A stretch of DNA of 64,000 nucleotides, from positions 248,001 to 312,000 of the forward strand of contig CALUFC010000001.1 of NCBI GenBank assembly GCA_944319885.1, written 5' to 3'. A program made the position numbers and the translations under genes. Shown piece after piece: positions 6,163-63,767 of this stretch (its first letter is position 1; each line of letters opens with the position of its first letter). The stretch comes from an uncultured Coriobacteriaceae bacterium (lineage in GTDB: Bacteria; Actinomycetota; Coriobacteriia; Coriobacteriales; Coriobacteriaceae). The notes under the pieces were generated by a model that worked only from the letters and a program-made list of their open reading frames with translations, searched no databases and was not told the origin of the DNA.

Positions 6163-6294
6163 TTTTTTCAGCTGCGCAATGGTTTTAGGGCGCCCTTCCA
6201 TATAGGGGCGCCCTTTTGCCGTTAAACCTGCAGGATTTCTGCGGGCAATTTCGCCGTCTATTCCGTGCGCTGACGCCAAAGCATTGAATATCTG
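6163..6294. repeat. Palindromic intergenic element, copy A (short centre)
   Basis: The left arm has TTTTTTCAG (6163-6171), N5, CAATGG (6177-6182), N18, then TATAG (6201-6205). The centre is 52 nt (6206-6257). The right arm has CTATT (6258-6262), N18, GCATTG (6281-6286), N5, CTG (6292-6294), then CAAAAG. The spacings match the other six copies except for the centre, which is 11 nt shorter than the usual 63. It starts 20 bp after the ABC operon, and that operon's terminator hairpin overlaps its left half. A TTAAACCTGC at 6222-6231 resembles, in reverse, the central core seen in other copies. Confidence 0.75.
6187..6217 (+). terminator. Terminator of the first ABC exporter operon
   Basis: Arms AGGGCGCCC and GGGCGCCC are separated by a short A/T-rich loop and followed by TTTT. 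The hairpin sits inside repeat copy A and ends the marR-ABC transcript. Confidence 0.75.
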
Positions 6295-6300
6295 CAAAAG

Positions 6301-6497: not shown

Positions 6498-7688
6498 ATG
6501 ATTGTTATTGCGGGTCGATCGGCGTGGGAGTGGTGGCGGACACCGCCTGTCGTGCGCGAGATTGAACTGGACATGGAGGATGTTCGTTCGCGGTTAGGGA
6601 AAGAGGTCCCTTCGGTTGTTCTCCATGAAAGAAAGAATGCGAGTGAGGCGGCGCGGCTGGTGGTCGGGAGACTGCTCGGTGAGCTGAAGGGCGTATCACT
6701 GCCGGTGGATGTGGTGGTTCCTCAAGGGCATTATGATGGACGGACTCGCCTGCTTAATCCGAGGCGCTCCTCAATATCGGATTGCCCGAAGCATCTGGTG
6801 GATAGGGGCGGCGGTCTTCATGTGGCTTCAGTCGAGCTTGCTGTGATACAGATGGCTGCGCATGAGTCTCTGGTGGGCGTCATTGAAGCGATGTACGAAG
6901 CATGCGGGCTCTATGCTTTATGTCCGCAAACGGGCCGGAATCTTGTTGCCCTGGAATTGATGAGGTCGTTTGCCGCGGCAAACGACCCCACTCCACAAAG
7001 TGGGGTTGCGGCTTATACAGATGAATGGGGAAGAAAGATCCCACATTATTCACGCGATGGGGAGGAGCTGGTCTGGACGCCGTGTGTTGATCGACATGGT
7101 TCATGGACCAGCATCTGGAAGCGTTCCCCGCTTACCCAGCCGGAACGCATCGTCTGCGCTATCGCCGATGTTCCCGGGTTGGAGGGACGTCGTCGCGCTG
7201 CCCGAGCCGCTCGATATGTATGCGGAGGCTCGGGCTCTCCGTTGGAGACAAAGGTCGTCATGCTGATTTGCCTTCCGCCGATGTTGGGTGGGGAGCATCT
7301 TCCATTTCCAGAGCTGAACAAACGGATTGCGTTCAGTGAGGGTGCAAGGCGCCTCGCCGGCATGAGGTGTTGTGTTGCCGACATGCTGTGGCCAAAGCAG
7401 CGCGTCGTTGTCGAGGTAAACGGTCTCTCCTTTCATGCGGATCGAGATGGCTTCATCGAGCATTCGGGTCGTCGCGCAGCTTTGGAGGCGGATGGTTATC
7501 GCGTGATAGACATCAACTACACGCAGGCAGCGCATCTCGAACAATGGGATTTGCTCGCCATCACGCTCGCGAAGGCGCTTGGCCGACGGCCCCAGGCGCG
7601 TATGGCGCGATTCCTGCATAATCGAGATGAACTTCATAGTCAGCTGTTCCACCATGCGGATAAACCGGAAGGCGCTCTTCTGTTCTGA
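6498..7688 (+). CDS. Uncharacterised protein with a C-terminal DUF559/Vsr-like nuclease fold
   Basis: A 396-residue protein with no membrane segment. The last third resembles DUF559/very-short-patch-repair-like PD-(D/E)XK domains. It has VADMLW with Asp295, then VVVEVNGLSFHAD with Glu306 and a His nearby, then RRAALEADGYRVIDIN. The usual Lys of (D/E)XK is Asn308, as occurs in DUF559-type proteins. The first two-thirds are not recognised; four Cys near residues 137-145 and around 195 are unlikely to form a clear zinc site. The gene lies between two copies of the palindromic intergenic element. A mobile or defence-related role is possible but unproven. Confidence 0.6.
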   Translation: MIVIAGRSAWEWWRTPPVVREIELDMEDVRSRLGKEVPSVVLHERKNASEAARLVVGRLLGELKGVSLPVDVVVPQGHYDGRTRLLNPRRSSISDCPKHLVDRGGGLHVASVELAVIQMAAHESLVGVIEAMYEACGLYALCPQTGRNLVALELMRSFAAANDPTPQSGVAAYTDEWGRKIPHYSRDGEELVWTPCVDRHGSWTSIWKRSPLTQPERIVCAIADVPGLEGRRRAARAARYVCGGSGSPLETKVVMLICLPPMLGGEHLPFPELNKRIAFSEGARRLAGMRCCVADMLWPKQRVVVEVNGLSFHADRDGFIEHSGRRAALEADGYRVIDINYTQAAHLEQWDLLAITLAKALGRRPQARMARFLHNRDELHSQLFHHADKPEGALLF

Positions 7689-7747: not shown

Positions 7748-7885
7748 AAAATGCAGGCATTCAATGGATTGCGGCGAGCCTGCAGGGTAGCGGGGGTTCA
7801 TGTATGCGAAAACAGCGAGATGGAGGGGCTGGAGCTTCGTTAGCTACTGGGAGCGTCGAAGGAAAACCCTTGCGTTGCTGAAAAA
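7748..7885. repeat. Palindromic intergenic element, copy B (short centre)
   Basis: The left arm has AAAATGCAG (7748-7756), N5, CAATGG (7762-7767), N18, GGTAG (7786-7790). The centre is 53 nt. The right arm has CTACT (7844-7848), N18, CCCTTG (7867-7872), N5, CTGAAAAA (7878-7885). It begins 59 bp after the nuclease-like gene. With copy A it brackets that gene, and these two are the only copies with the shorter centre. Short open frames crossing it have no family resemblance. Confidence 0.8.
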
Positions 7886-30669: not shown

Positions 30670-30817
30670 TTTTTCAGGTACGCAATGGTTTAGTGGGAAT
30701 GCCCTGAGTAGACCTGTTTGTGCATCGAAGAATGCGCAGGTAAAGGTTTTGCTTGATGTCGGTAACATGCGTCGCTACTCGGAGGTCCGGCACTGAACTC
30801 TTGCGAAGCTGAAAAAA
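30670..30817. repeat. Palindromic intergenic element, copy C
   Basis: The left arm has TTTTTCAG (30670-30677), N5, CAATGG (30683-30688), N18, AGTAG (30707-30711). The centre is 63 nt. The right arm has CTACT (30775-30779), N18, CTCTTG (30798-30803), N5, CTGAAAAAA (30809-30817). The core GCAGGTAAA sits at positions 25-33 of the centre (30736-30744). All spacings agree exactly with copies D to G. It lies between the HAD phosphatase and the GntR gene. Confidence 0.85.
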
Positions 30818-36757: not shown

Positions 36758-36905
36758 TTTTTTCAGATACTCAATGGTTGGGCGGGGATGGGCTGAGTAG
36801 TCAAGAAGGCACGTTGAAGAACCTGCAGGTAGAGAGCTCGATTAAGAGCTGCGGCATGCATGCCTACTCCAGATGCCGTCTTTAAACCATTGAGAGACTG
36901 AAAAA
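36758..36905. repeat. Palindromic intergenic element, copy D (clearest copy)
   Basis: The left arm has TTTTTTCAG (36758-36766), N5, CAATGG (36772-36777), N18, AGTAG (36796-36800). The centre is 63 nt (36801-36863). The right arm has CTACT (36864-36868), N18, CCATTG (36887-36892), N5, CTGAAAAA (36898-36905). The core GCAGGTAGA lies at positions 25-33 of the centre. Every box matches the family consensus. It lies between the PTS operon and the his operon. Confidence 0.88.
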
Positions 36906-37091: not shown

Positions 37092-38783
37092 ATGGCCGTA
37101 ACGCCATGGGGGTTCAGAGACATCCTGCCCGAGGAGGCCGCGACGCGCGAGCGGATTGCCGAGACGGTGCGCGCGGTCTTCAGGACACATGGGTATCTGC
37201 CGGTAGAAACGCCGCTGCTTGAAGATCGCGTGACGCTCGAGGCGAGTGGCGGGCGTATGGCCGACACACCGTTCAAGCTGTTTGACGACGATGGCCGCGT
37301 GCTCGTGGTGCGTCACGACAATACGCTGCCCATCGTGCGGCTTGTGTCGTCGCGCCTGAAGCAGCACGCGCTGCCGCTGCGCCTGCGGTACGAAGCGCCG
37401 GTTGTGCGCGAGCAGGCGCGCTTTGCCGGCATGGCGCGGCAGTTCACCCAGTTGGGCTTTGAGCTTGTGGGCGACGGCGGCGCCGAAGCGGATGCCGAGA
37501 TGGTCGCGCTCGCCATCGAGGCCATGGAGGCGCTGGGGGTGCCCGATTGCCGCATGGTGTGCGGTAGCGTCCTGCCGTTCCAGCTGCTGCTCGCGCGTTG
37601 CGACGATGCGGCGCTCGCCATCGACGCGCTCGCACTCGTTCACGCGAACAACTTTGTAGATCTGGATAATCGCGTGGCGCAAAGCGGCGTTTCGGAGGCG
37701 ATGGCGCGTGCGATCACCGAGCTGCCGCGCCAGCACGGAGGCCTCGAGGCGCTCGATCGTGTGGACGAGCTGCTGGCGAGCGCGGGCGTGACCGAGCAAG
37801 CAACCGCCGAGCTCCGGGGGCTCTATGCCCGGCTTGGTGACCGCGCTTGCGCGCTGTCGTTCGATTTTTCCATCATGAACTCGTTCGATTACTACACGGG
37901 GCTCGTGTTCAAGGCCTACGCCGCCGGCATGTCCGATGCGCTGGGTTCGGGCGGTCGCTATGACGACGTGTTCGATAACGTATTTGCTGCGTGCGCGCAT
38001 GTGCCCGCCGCCGGTTTCGCGTTTTCGCTTGAGCGCCTGGAGGAGGCGCTTGATGGCTGCGCGCCGGGTGCGTCGGCGGCGTGCGGGGCTCCCTCTGAGG
38101 TACCGCTGCGCATCGCGGTGCCCAAGGGATCGCTCAATCCGGGCACCATCGAGGCGCTCGAGCGCGCCGGGCTCGATGTTTCCGGTCTGCGTGATCCGGG
38201 TCGCCGACTGATCATTTCCTCGCATGAGGTTGCCGGCTCCCACGCAGACGCCCCGTGTTCGCTGGGCGACGTCGAGTTTGTCATCGTGCGCGCCACCGAT
38301 GCTCCGGCATTCGTGGCGTGCGGCGGGGCGGATTGCGGCTTTTGCGGCCGAGACTCGCTCATCGAGGCCGATCTCGATTTGCTCGAGCTTATCGACCTGA
38401 GGTACGGCGCATGCCGGTTCATCGAGGCGGAGCCAGCTGGTCGCGCGGAGGCAACCAAGCGCGCGTATACCCGTCGCGGCACCCTGCGCGTGGCAACCAA
38501 GTATCCCAAGATCGCCGCTTCATGGTACGCCCAGCGCGGCATCGCGGCGGATATCGTATCGCTGCACGGCAATATCGAGCTCGGACCCATCGTGGGGCTT
38601 TCCGACCGCATTGTAGACATCACGGCAACGGGCACCACGCTGCGCGAGAACAACCTGGTTATCACCGGTGAGATCATGACCTGCACGGCGCGCTTCTTTG
38701 CCAACCCGGGGTGCGCCCGCCTCGATCCGCGCGTGCGCGAGCTCGCGCGGCGCCTGGCCGCGTGCGAGATTGGAGCGAAATGA
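37092..38783 (+). CDS. hisZG: HisZ-HisG fusion: ATP phosphoribosyltransferase, regulatory plus catalytic parts
   Basis: A 563-residue fusion. Residues 1 to about 325 are HisZ, the histidyl-tRNA-synthetase-like regulatory subunit (GFRDILPEEA, then RHDNTLPIVR, RYEAPVVRE and DYYTGLVFKAY). Residues about 335-563 are the short-form catalytic HisG (RIAVPKGSLNPGT, VATKYPKIA, LHGNIELGPIVGLSDRIVD). Together they join ATP and PRPP in the first step of histidine synthesis, feedback-inhibited by histidine through HisZ. In most bacteria with short HisG the two are separate chains in a hetero-octamer. It is the first gene of the operon and overlaps hisD by 4 bp. Confidence 0.93.
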   Translation: MAVTPWGFRDILPEEAATRERIAETVRAVFRTHGYLPVETPLLEDRVTLEASGGRMADTPFKLFDDDGRVLVVRHDNTLPIVRLVSSRLKQHALPLRLRYEAPVVREQARFAGMARQFTQLGFELVGDGGAEADAEMVALAIEAMEALGVPDCRMVCGSVLPFQLLLARCDDAALAIDALALVHANNFVDLDNRVAQSGVSEAMARAITELPRQHGGLEALDRVDELLASAGVTEQATAELRGLYARLGDRACALSFDFSIMNSFDYYTGLVFKAYAAGMSDALGSGGRYDDVFDNVFAACAHVPAAGFAFSLERLEEALDGCAPGASAACGAPSEVPLRIAVPKGSLNPGTIEALERAGLDVSGLRDPGRRLIISSHEVAGSHADAPCSLGDVEFVIVRATDAPAFVACGGADCGFCGRDSLIEADLDLLELIDLRYGACRFIEAEPAGRAEATKRAYTRRGTLRVATKYPKIAASWYAQRGIAADIVSLHGNIELGPIVGLSDRIVDITATGTTLRENNLVITGEIMTCTARFFANPGCARLDPRVRELARRLAACEIGAK

Positions 38784-44285: not shown

Positions 44286-44315
44286 GTGCGTGTGGCAAAC
44301 GGCAAGGAGGTCGCG

Positions 44316-44648
44316 ATGCCAATCGATACGGTGGACATCGATGCGGTGAAGTTCGATGCGCACGGGCTGGTGCCCTGTGTGGTGCAGCAATACAATACCG
44401 GCGAGGTGCTCATGGTGGCGTGGATGAACGCCGCATCGCTGCGCCTCACGCTCGAGACGGGCACAACATGGTTTTGGAGCCGGAGCCGCCAGGAGCTCTG
44501 GAACAAGGGCGCAACGAGCGGCAACATGCAGCACGTGCGCGAGCTGCTTGTTGATTGCGATGCCGACACGCTGCTCGCGAAGGTCGACTCGCCCGGACCT
44601 GCCTGCCACACCGGCGCGCGCAGCTGCTTTTTCCGGCGACTGACGTAA
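44316..44648 (+). CDS. hisI: Phosphoribosyl-AMP cyclohydrolase
   Basis: A 110-residue zinc enzyme opening the adenine ring of [33 protein letters not shown] and SGNMQHV followed by DCDADTLL are the family core, and [10 protein letters not shown] carries Cys ligands. It is a stand-alone HisI without the HisE domain. AAGGAGG gives the start at 44316. In the operon it is separated from hisE by a palindromic repeat. Confidence 0.95.
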
Positions 44649-44678
44649 GGGGCGGGCGATTTACACCTTGCGATGACG

Positions 44679-44826
44679 AAAATGCAGGCATGCAATGGTT
44701 TTGCTCCGGGGTGCCTAGTAGCACGCTGCGGGGGCTGGAGAAACTCCTGTGTCAAAGAGGTGCGATAGTGCTCGACGGCGCGGGATACTCGACGGCCCCC
44801 GCTTAATCTATTGAATACCTGAAAAA
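44679..44826. repeat. Palindromic intergenic element, copy E, inside the his operon
   Basis: The left arm has AAAATGCAG (44679-44687), N5, CAATGG (44693-44698), N18, AGTAG (44717-44721). The centre is 63 nt. The right arm has ATACT (44785-44789), N18, CTATTG (44808-44813), N5, CTGAAAAA (44819-44826). It fills nearly all of the 207-bp gap between hisI and hisE, where every other his junction is 41 bp or less. A GCGGGGGC in the centre pairs with GCCCCCGC in the right N18. The central core seen in copies C, D, F and G is not clear here. Confidence 0.82.
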
Positions 44827-44855
44827 GTGAAACTGTACGAAGAAAGGTGAGGGGC

Positions 44856-45173
44856 ATGGGTGAGCGAACAGCGCATGTGCGCGATGGAAATATCGGTGCA
44901 ACGCTCGAGGGATTGGCCCGCGTGATCCATGAGCGGCGCGAGGCGTCGCCGGAGGAGAGCTATACGGCGCGTTTGCTGAGCGGCAAGGAAGATAGCCTGC
45001 TGAAGAAGCTTGCCGAGGAGGCGAGCGAGGTCATCATGGCGGCGAAAGACCGCGACCACGACCACATTCGCTACGAGGCGGCGGACCTCGTGTACCATCT
45101 ACTCGTGACACTCGAGCGCTACGGCGTGAGCATCGAGGAGCTTGCTGGCGAGCTCGATGCGCGACATCGTTAG
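44856..45173 (+). CDS. hisE: Phosphoribosyl-ATP pyrophosphatase
   Basis: A 105-residue MazG-fold enzyme removing pyrophosphate from PR-ATP. SYTARLLSGKEDSLLKKLAEEASEVIMAAKD carries the EExxE metal site, and YEAADLVYHLLVTLE the second (ExxD). The start at 44856 follows GGTGAGGGG. It is the last his gene, separated from hisI by copy E of the repeat. Confidence 0.95.
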   Translation: MGERTAHVRDGNIGATLEGLARVIHERREASPEESYTARLLSGKEDSLLKKLAEEASEVIMAAKDRDHDHIRYEAADLVYHLLVTLERYGVSIEELAGELDARHR

Positions 45174-57028: not shown

Positions 57029-57937
57029 ATGGATGATTTTCTGAACAACATGTCTTCTTCTGCCGGCACGCCGCGCCGCCGATCCTCATCGCGGGCACGC
57101 TCGCGCGCCGATGTCGCAGAGGACCGGTCTGCGACGCAGGCCCGGCGCACTCGCTCGCGGGAAGGCACCGCGCGTGCAGACGGCGCGCGCCGTGGAACCG
57201 CCCGCCCTGGCACCGCGCGCGGCGGGTCTTCGTCACGTGACGCAGCAACGCGTGGGCGCTCGCGCGCCGCGAGCGGACAGGCTCGGCAGACGCGCGATGC
57301 TCGCCGCACCAATTTCATGCGCTATGCGAGCGATAACCGTATCGTGCAGGCAGTTTACGGCATCACAACCGGACCGTATCGCTTCCTGTTTTACGGCGTG
57401 GTGGCACTTGCGGTGCTGCTCAGCCTCTATTTCCCCGTGCGCGACCTCTATGTTGCGCATCGAACGAACGAGATTCTGCAGCGCCAGCTCGAGATTCGGG
57501 AAACCTACAACGAAGGGCTCCAGAAGGATGTCGATAAGCTGCTCTCAACCGAGGGGATCGAAGACGAGGCGCGTTCCAGCCTGGGCCTCGTGATGCCCGA
57601 CGAGAAGCGACTCGAGGTGAAGGGTCTCGATGAGGCGCAGCAGAAGGATTCCTCATCAGATTCCAAAGGTGACGCCACGGGCAAAGACGATGCCGGCGAC
57701 GCGGATGCTGCATCCGATGACGACAACGATGCAGCAGACCAGGGCGACAGTGCGGACGATGCGGGCGCAACGGACAGCGACGCTGCGTCCGAAGACGCCG
57801 CGCCCTCGAACTCAACGGAGGCGGAGGCGGCCGAGCAGGCCGTTGCCCAAAAGGCTCCGTGGTATATTCAGATACTCGACACGTTGTTCTTCTTCCATGG
57901 TGTAGACGGCCAGCGCGTTGCCTCGACAGGAGCGTGA
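57029..57937 (+). CDS. DivIC/FtsB-family septum formation protein
   Basis: A 302-residue bitopic membrane protein. About 90 N-terminal residues are Arg/Ser/Ala/Gly-rich and basic (cytoplasmic, disordered). One membrane segment follows (about 110-131, FYGVVALAVLLSLYFPV), then a short coiled coil (EILQRQLEIRETYNEGLQKDVDKLLS) and the EDEARSSLGLVMPDEKR motif of the FtsB/DivIC family. A long acidic Asp/Ala-rich stretch and a final hydrophobic end (WYIQILDTLFFFHG) follow. Such proteins link FtsL and FtsQ in the divisome. The start could also be the ATG at 57014. Confidence 0.82.
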   Translation: MDDFLNNMSSSAGTPRRRSSSRARSRADVAEDRSATQARRTRSREGTARADGARRGTARPGTARGGSSSRDAATRGRSRAASGQARQTRDARRTNFMRYASDNRIVQAVYGITTGPYRFLFYGVVALAVLLSLYFPVRDLYVAHRTNEILQRQLEIRETYNEGLQKDVDKLLSTEGIEDEARSSLGLVMPDEKRLEVKGLDEAQQKDSSSDSKGDATGKDDAGDADAASDDDNDAADQGDSADDAGATDSDAASEDAAPSNSTEAEAAEQAVAQKAPWYIQILDTLFFFHGVDGQRVASTGA

Positions 57938-59003: not shown

Positions 59004-59154
59004 TTTTTTCAGATATTCAATGGTTTGTTCTCGACCCTTTGAGTAGCCTGCACGACACGTTCGATGTATCGATCTGTTTACCTGCGATAATGTGAGGCTT
59101 CAATTCCAGCTACTCCGATGTCGGATGTTGAACCATGGAATGCCTGCATTTTTG
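59004..59154. repeat. Palindromic intergenic element, copy F
   Basis: The left arm has TTTTTTCAG (59004-59012), N5, CAATGG (59018-59023), N18, AGTAG (59042-59046). The centre is 63 nt. The right arm has CTACT (59110-59114), N18, CCATGG (59133-59138), N5, CTGCATTTTT (59144-59153). GTTTACCTGC (59076-59085) is the central core in reverse, so this copy points opposite to C and D. It starts 48 bp after the ppx/gppA stop. The next 107 bp up to the terminator show nothing I can name. Confidence 0.85.
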
Positions 59155-63617: not shown

Positions 63618-63767
63618 TTTTTGCAGCTGCGCAATGGTTTAGAACCAGCATGCTGAGTAGCGGCATGGATATGCAACGAGGACTACGCCGTTTATCTCCG
63701 CTATTTCTAGCAAGGATTGGGGTCTATCCAGCAGATTGTGGTCAAACCATTGCCTAGCTGAAAAAAA
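63618..63767. repeat. Palindromic intergenic element, copy G
   Basis: The left arm has TTTTTGCAG (63618-63626), N5, CAATGG (63632-63637), N18, AGTAG (63656-63660). The centre is 63 nt. The right arm has CTATC (63724-63728), N18, CCATTG (63747-63752), N5, CTGAAAAAAA (63758-63767). TTTATCTCCG (63691-63700) resembles the reversed central core. It lies 189 bp after the SPFH stop. Confidence 0.83.

Follow-up and report, generated by a model that had tools for sequence, protein, structure and literature searches.

Here, I show that the gap between hisI and hisE in the histidine operon of an uncultured Coriobacteriaceae bacterium is occupied by a DNA site, not by an RNA hairpin, and that this site is one of a family of short intergenic elements bounded by inverted arms. 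The reading preferred here, and held to be rather probable, is that of a short non-autonomous MITE-like mobile DNA element inserted in the hisI-hisE gap in the lineage of the window, that is, the whole stretch of 64,000 nucleotides under analysis. In this reading the element has exchangeable arms and is also conserved in place, and for that reason it is probably bound by protein.

Dead transposon remnants and RNA hairpins are the usual explanations of short interspersed repeats. A working protein-DNA machine is what the present data point to instead: the length classes lie about one helical turn apart, the arms change from genus to genus while inner motifs and core recur, and the arm cores are conserved in place. 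With this, it becomes possible to test whether helical phase sets a lower limit to the length of a mobile element. The hisI-hisE junction also shows that a single place in an operon can carry elements of this kind in different genera, with arms that are not the same.

The hisI-hisE gap measures 207 bp and is mostly element (Table 1), as an earlier note on this DNA had stated; its observation that the remaining his junctions overlap or are short likewise holds, at about 42 bp or less by the ORF list and my own reading of start codons. That note had placed the element at 44679 to 44826, of which the end stands and the start moves to 44680, and had called it a palindrome, a term that fits the short shared blocks only and not the rest. 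The two ends of the his copy are in fact unlike each other (AAATGCAG on the left, TTTTTCAG on the right). They score 42.1 and 47.6 with a 45-bp half-site matrix, the training set of which (14 copies) included the his copy; a mononucleotide shuffle of the window, made once and scanned on both strands, reaches at most -8.2, and the best score outside the elements of the window is 13.2, at 57864. The his operon itself starts with a 563-aa ORF (window 37092-38783), which I read as a fusion of HisZ-like and HisG-like parts.

Table 1. Coordinates of the hisI-hisE element, its parts, the adjoining genes and the other copies in the window
Feature	Position	Strand	Remarks
hisI	44286..44648	+	GTG 44286 or ATG 44316 start; 5' of element; ORF list
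hisI-hisE element (copy E of the earlier note)	44680..44826	.	147 bp; half-site matrix, genome patterns
his copy, left arm	44680..44701	+	AAATGCAG end type, then GCATG, then CAATGGTTT; matrix positions 1-22
his copy, left inner block	44716..44721	+	TAGTAG (consensus GAGTAG); matrix positions 37-42
his copy, right inner block	44785..44790	-	GAGTAT on - strand
his copy, right arm	44805..44826	-	TTTTTCAG end type
hisE	44856..45173	+	ATG 44856; AAGAAAGG-like ribosome site intact 3' of element
Copy	6164..6299	.	136-bp class; left part is a truncated relic in G052
Copy	7749..7885	.	137-bp class; missing in G052 along with preceding ORF
Copy	30670..30816	.	147 bp; not in G052
Copy	36759..36905	.	147 bp; 5' of his operon; not in G052
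Copy	59005..59151	.	147 bp; matrix
Copy	63619..63765	.	147 bp; matrix

A half-site pattern blind to spacing gives 55 matches at three mismatches or fewer in the genome of the window (G000). Arms of 25 paired elements, seven of them within the window, account for 49 of these matches; the other six are weak, with three mismatches each, and the reversed-pattern control yields two. One arm at C1:417517 was missed by the pattern owing to a 1-bp deletion. The lengths are 147 bp (14 elements), 146 (four), 145 (one), 137 (two) and 136 (four), hence two classes, 145-147 bp (19 elements) and 136-137 bp (six), separated by about one helical turn; no element falls at 138-144 bp, pairs of 90 to 220 bp being permitted. 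Each arm has TTTTTCAG or AAATGCAG at its end; five variable positions separate this from CAATGGTTT, and a further variable spacer leads to GAGTAG, the inner block, which faces inwards. By my own gene caller, 24 of the 25 elements are free of called genes, the exception being C10:13595, which shares 86 bp with a called ORF, and 13 of the junctions are tandem, nine convergent, two divergent and one undetermined. The interiors of paralogues are mostly no more alike than shuffled sequences. A general repeat search did not list the family, and whole-element BLAST with the his copy gave a full-length match to itself only, both because the copies share only short blocks. In the window, a 396-aa ORF (6498-7688) lies between the elements at 6164-6299 and 7749-7885; it has no Pfam or NCBIfam match, and it is missing in the sister genome G052 together with the right-hand element.

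The earlier note had suggested that the element, if folded in RNA, might be a processing or attenuation point, and folding is indeed what a transcribed element (an attenuator, a processing hairpin or a structured RNA) would lean on: the his region folds with z -4.25, the 25 copies have mean z of -3.5 and -3.1 on the two strands, and 25 elements of other genera have a mean z of -1.2 for the sequence between their arms, which I read, without a chimera control, as due to the inner blocks. However, 25 chimeras, each joining two different elements, fold equally well (mean z -3.1), so that the folding of the his region is explained by the shared inverted motifs. The spacers are no more complementary within elements than between them, neither the outer arm spacers (0.320 versus 0.324) nor the inner ones (0.261 versus 0.269). 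Taken with the chimeras, this means that each arm matches its site independently, as expected for a protein. Moreover, the stretch behind GTAG folds no better than its flank (z -0.58 versus -0.54 over 64 arms) and forms no foldback hairpin, and the central core segment of the 25 elements of other genera has z -0.40 against -0.18 for the flank. Rfam at gathering threshold returns only tRNA and SRP RNA in the window and seven 20-kb stretches, and neither an intrinsic terminator nor a sigma-70-type promoter was found in a scan of 44600-44900. The RNA suggestion was dropped on these grounds, and an RNA role of any of the three kinds is regarded as most improbable. One arm, in the element at L158:2454-2600 (C1:148953), contains an 18-bp foldback that starts at GTAG, within the element, and greatly exceeds in strength those of the other arms among the 64.

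The earlier note had also reasoned that an element fixed at this point in all relatives would argue against recent insertion. This is not so: the element is missing from the hisI-hisE gap in 32 of the 33 relatives read (one genome per species; 30 of the loci were read with the hisI protein as query). G052 has a gap of 48 bp and 27 further relatives have gaps of 6-122 bp, too short for the element, and four additional relatives without it have gaps of 117 bp (one) and 239 bp (three); the 239-bp gaps, in L267, L268 and L269, look coding rather than element-like. The exception is G058, a member of another genus, where a 232-bp gap holds a related element with different arms. Of the two possibilities that the earlier note had considered, a fold in RNA or a DNA site, the second is supported, and the element behaves as an insertion.

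Insertion in the lineage of the window is the simpler reading of the hisI-hisE comparison, with some reserve, for the DNA specific to G000 is longer than the element (159 versus 147 bp at the his junction) and the exact empty-site junction is therefore not seen; at 44680, 36759 and 30670, the G000-specific DNA amounts to 159, 207 and 307 bp, respectively, in each case exceeding the element. In the syntenic region of G052, the elements at 30670, 36759 and 7749 are missing and that at 6164 persists as a truncated relic, which means that loss occurs in G052 too. In two relatives (L099 and L103), the hisI-hisE gap contains a different palindrome, of the GGGACAGTCCCC...GGGGACTGTCCC type; repeats of more than one kind thus enter this junction.

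Among the eight other genomes of the genus, the arm form of the window occurs in G052 only, leaving seven of nine members without it, and an arm profile matches in two of 296 genomes of the class. A search of 65 family genomes gave one further match, in G046 with two mismatches, which is taken as chance; a control pattern matched once, in G002. Among GTDB contigs, two of 17 half-site stretches have an exact partner site, both from an uncultured Coriobacteriaceae bacterium (CALUIM01), and in them two G052 elements are found letter for letter. The other 15 have no partner better than two mismatches of nine (one has two) and are likewise taken as chance.

G052 carries seven elements, of 147 bp (four), 146 bp (two) and 137 bp (one), hence in the same two length classes as G000, and five of the seven occupy the locus of a G000 element. 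In four same-locus pairs (the fifth, from a region about 98% alike, was left out), 118 of 136 arm-core positions are identical, compared with 65 of 120 spacer positions. The core positions had been picked for their conservation among copies; as the interiors confirm that the members of each pair truly correspond, this is read as selection in place. One same-locus pair differs in length by 10 bp, with 136 bp in one of the two species and 146 bp in its sister. At C3:9422, where the flanks are conserved between G000 and G052, the interior runs in opposite directions in the two genomes (identity 0.68 when flipped, 0.46 in the same orientation); this pair (L162:2523-2669 and L176:1396-1542) lies between a cstA-like gene and tRNA-Gln.

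Elements of the same layout recur with other arms in other genera. The element in the G058 gap has arms TTTTCAACTTTTGGGCAC, followed by GAGTAG and, after 24 bases, GCAGGTA, arranged as in G000; GAGTAG blocks and a AAAACCGCAGGTAG-like core recur with other arms in samples from five of six genera. A scan for the architecture (arms, inner blocks and core), confined to spans of 133-139 and 144-149 bp, found nine elements in 158 kb of G058, nine in 360 kb of G063, five in 235 kb of G003 and one each in G006 and G051, and none in the samples of G050, G056 and G057 or in a 54-kb piece of G052. In the window it recovered four of the seven known elements, with nothing in shuffled controls. An earlier version, with spans of 131-149 bp, gave nothing at 140-143 bp and one control match; four of its five G006 matches and single weak ones of G058 and G003 were left out. 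Since these scans reward the motifs, recurrence of the latter is partly by construction, a circularity that affects neither the G058 his copy nor an arms-only scan. The latter, run without a control, returns far more inverted pairs than there are elements: 158 kb of G058 yielded additional elements, some with the same arms and some with others, amid many chance pairs, and the window yielded 24 inverted pairs, four of which are elements, with three of the seven known ones missed.

Arms differ between subfamilies, even inside one genome: G063 has two arm types with four elements each, and one type in G058 has six. All 38 arm matches of seven arm types, drawn from four genomes, have a partner within 150 bp; nine unpaired matches of four other arms were set aside (five of G058 arm ii, one of arm iv, one of G003 arm b and two of the G051 tandem arm). 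A phage origin was discarded, the two-sided G000 pattern having no match in viral contigs; in these, 26 half-site stretches have no partner with fewer than three mismatches of nine, and none of 43 core-pattern stretches passed the architecture scan. No account of such elements in Coriobacteriaceae was found in the open-licence PMC literature.

Placed by best match in each of 49 elements, the AAAACCGCAGGTAG-like core lies 66-68 bp from one end in 40 (20 of 25 in G000, six of seven in G052, 14 of 17 elsewhere), as against 10% with shuffled interiors. The opposite arm stands 67-70 or 78-80 bp from the core, which is itself asymmetric. The distance from inner block to inner block, derived from the lengths in G000, is 64-65 bp in six of 25 elements and 73-75 bp in 19; in other genera, where 12 of 25 elements allow the measurement, it is 63-66 bp in 11 and 76 bp in one. 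The outer span there, from an open scan, is 131-140 bp in 14 of 18 and 146 bp in one, with outliers of 122, 181 and 200 bp that were left out as non-members (the shuffled control being empty); the blur is partly due to longer inverted arms, for which the reading of the ends can shift. In the his copy no core can be recognised: none of the other 24 copies in G000 scores as low (best core score 13, against a mean of 14.4 for shuffled interiors), hence statements about the class as a whole may not hold for it.

As regards mobility, the elements have inverted terminal repeats, are shorter than 500 bp and contain no gene, as MITEs do; dispersed copies with unrelated flanks are present in G063 and were not seen in G000. 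The G063 copies, L311:5987 and L317:19701, have interiors that are 84% alike and flank identities of 0.37 and 0.45; they are the clearest sign that the unit disperses. Two other pairs, L312/L324 of G063 and C1:108044/C20:8728, the sole similar pair in G000, were rejected as cases of transposition, their flanks being also alike, which indicates larger duplications. By eye, no target-site duplication appears in the flanks listed, young copies being few. Neither was an autonomous copy found in G000 and G052, where all half-site matches apart from weak ones fall in short elements, nor an autonomous partner among the 17 half-site stretches of GTDB contigs; other genera were read as samples.

Several candidate proteins were tried and set aside. 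The arms resemble TCAANNNNTTR, which I take to be the IHF/HU-type site, and that candidate fell with the lack of any PF00216 match in the nine genus genomes, nine of 14 control genomes giving one. A RAYT/REP system was rejected since Y1/RAYT transposases have no match in G000 (at least one in seven of the nine genus genomes), and a serine invertase since serine recombinases have none in G000 either. G000 encodes two tyrosine recombinases, probably XerD and XerC given that the adjoining ORFs read as pyrG and rpsB, and a dedicated recombinase of this type was thus not retained. Gyrase-like phasing was dismissed because a 10-11 bp A/T periodicity in non-core positions is not significant (p 0.23), and a sigma-B-like promoter reading of each arm was considered and dropped.

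How the parts might act together can be proposed as follows. A protein specific to each subfamily, most simply a transposase or recombinase, would bind the arms, and a factor common to the class would bind the inner blocks and the core; the intervening DNA would form a loop or wrap that turns both arms to the same side, which would account for lengths about one helical turn apart. Transposition itself belongs to the proposal as well. Several facts sit uneasily with a MITE. Arm cores conserved in place are not expected of an inert one, paralogue interiors are mostly at the shuffled level, and neither target duplication by eye nor an autonomous copy in G000 and G052 came to light. Nor does G000 offer a serine recombinase or Y1/RAYT match, its two tyrosine recombinases reading as XerC and XerD. 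The outer span is less sharp elsewhere, the G050, G056 and G057 samples contain no element, and the his copy scores below the shuffled mean for the core.

Conservation in place, together with the shared loci of G000 and G052 and the length steps, would also suit a BIME-like nucleoprotein site of the host, at which the 136/147-bp DNA is wrapped or looped by a protein that organises the chromosome or acts on its topology, the contacts are selected, and sites are slowly gained and lost. The distribution of junctions among the copies counts in its favour as well, the window gaps of at least 60 bp being 20 tandem, five convergent and five divergent. For Escherichia coli gyrase, an extended motif of about 130 bp, phased in its G/C content, has been described, together with enrichment in BIME-2 and downstream of operons with high transcription (PMC6379681); strong gyrase sites are thus similar in length and in their symmetric two-armed layout. 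Unlike them, the present elements have strict subfamily-specific arms and no significant A/T phasing, and one general protein would not explain sequence-specific arms that differ by subfamily within one genome. With no HU/IHF match in the genus, and with this arm form missing from most of its members, a host site is considered unlikely. Far less probable still is a phase-variable segment in which a recombinase flips the piece between the arms: the flipped interior at C3:9422 is what such a segment would produce, yet one of five same-locus pairs is flipped, only Xer-like tyrosine recombinases and no serine recombinase match are at hand in G000, and the his copy has no promoter-like site.

The MITE-like reading does not compel a choice between insertions that spread and placed regulatory parts, the pair of options offered by the earlier note: the two are not mutually exclusive, as the class looks mobile and its arm cores are conserved in place. 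A broader proposal is advanced tentatively, at somewhat less than even confidence, namely that a class of intergenic two-module elements is widespread in Coriobacteriaceae, with a recurring inner module (inner blocks and AAAACCGCAGGTAG-like core), exchangeable inverted arms and a whole-turn spacing of the arms. In it, the choice of the acting protein would lie with the arms and the docking of a common factor with the inner module; a single machine, mobile or chromosome-organising, would thus have diversified its specificity and kept its geometry.

Among known repeats, nearest in look are the Correia elements (CREE) of Neisseria, which are intergenic, about 150 bp long, with inverted ends in two forms and a few discrete length types, features common to both. 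Signs of CREE mobilisation are described, by a mechanism reported as not determined (PMC2649163), and inversion has been reported (PMC10969869). CREE structure is, in that account, generally conserved within a length type, whereas paralogue interiors are mostly unrelated here; the present elements differ from CREE, too, in that their arms vary by subfamily around an inner set of motifs that recurs, blocks as well as core, and in that about one helical turn separates their length classes. REP dimers contain a GTAG block in inverted pairs, some with spacers of similar length and different sequence (PMC3733652), and both REP/BIME and these GTAG-tagged dimers are alike in being intergenic, paired and inverted around such a block; unlike them, the present arms have no hairpin behind GTAG and G000 has no Y1/RAYT match. 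MITEs, too, are short, with inverted ends, no gene and interiors that may be less conserved than the ends, and copies of QMITE1 of Coxiella range from 39 to 400 bp (PMC10969869), as opposed to the discrete classes found here, in which target duplication was not seen by eye.

A minor observation concerns the arms themselves. In G051 (L299 near 5318 and L303 near 10884) and in G058 (L276:4733), they occur on one side as direct tandem repeats, which look as if a binding site had been doubled.
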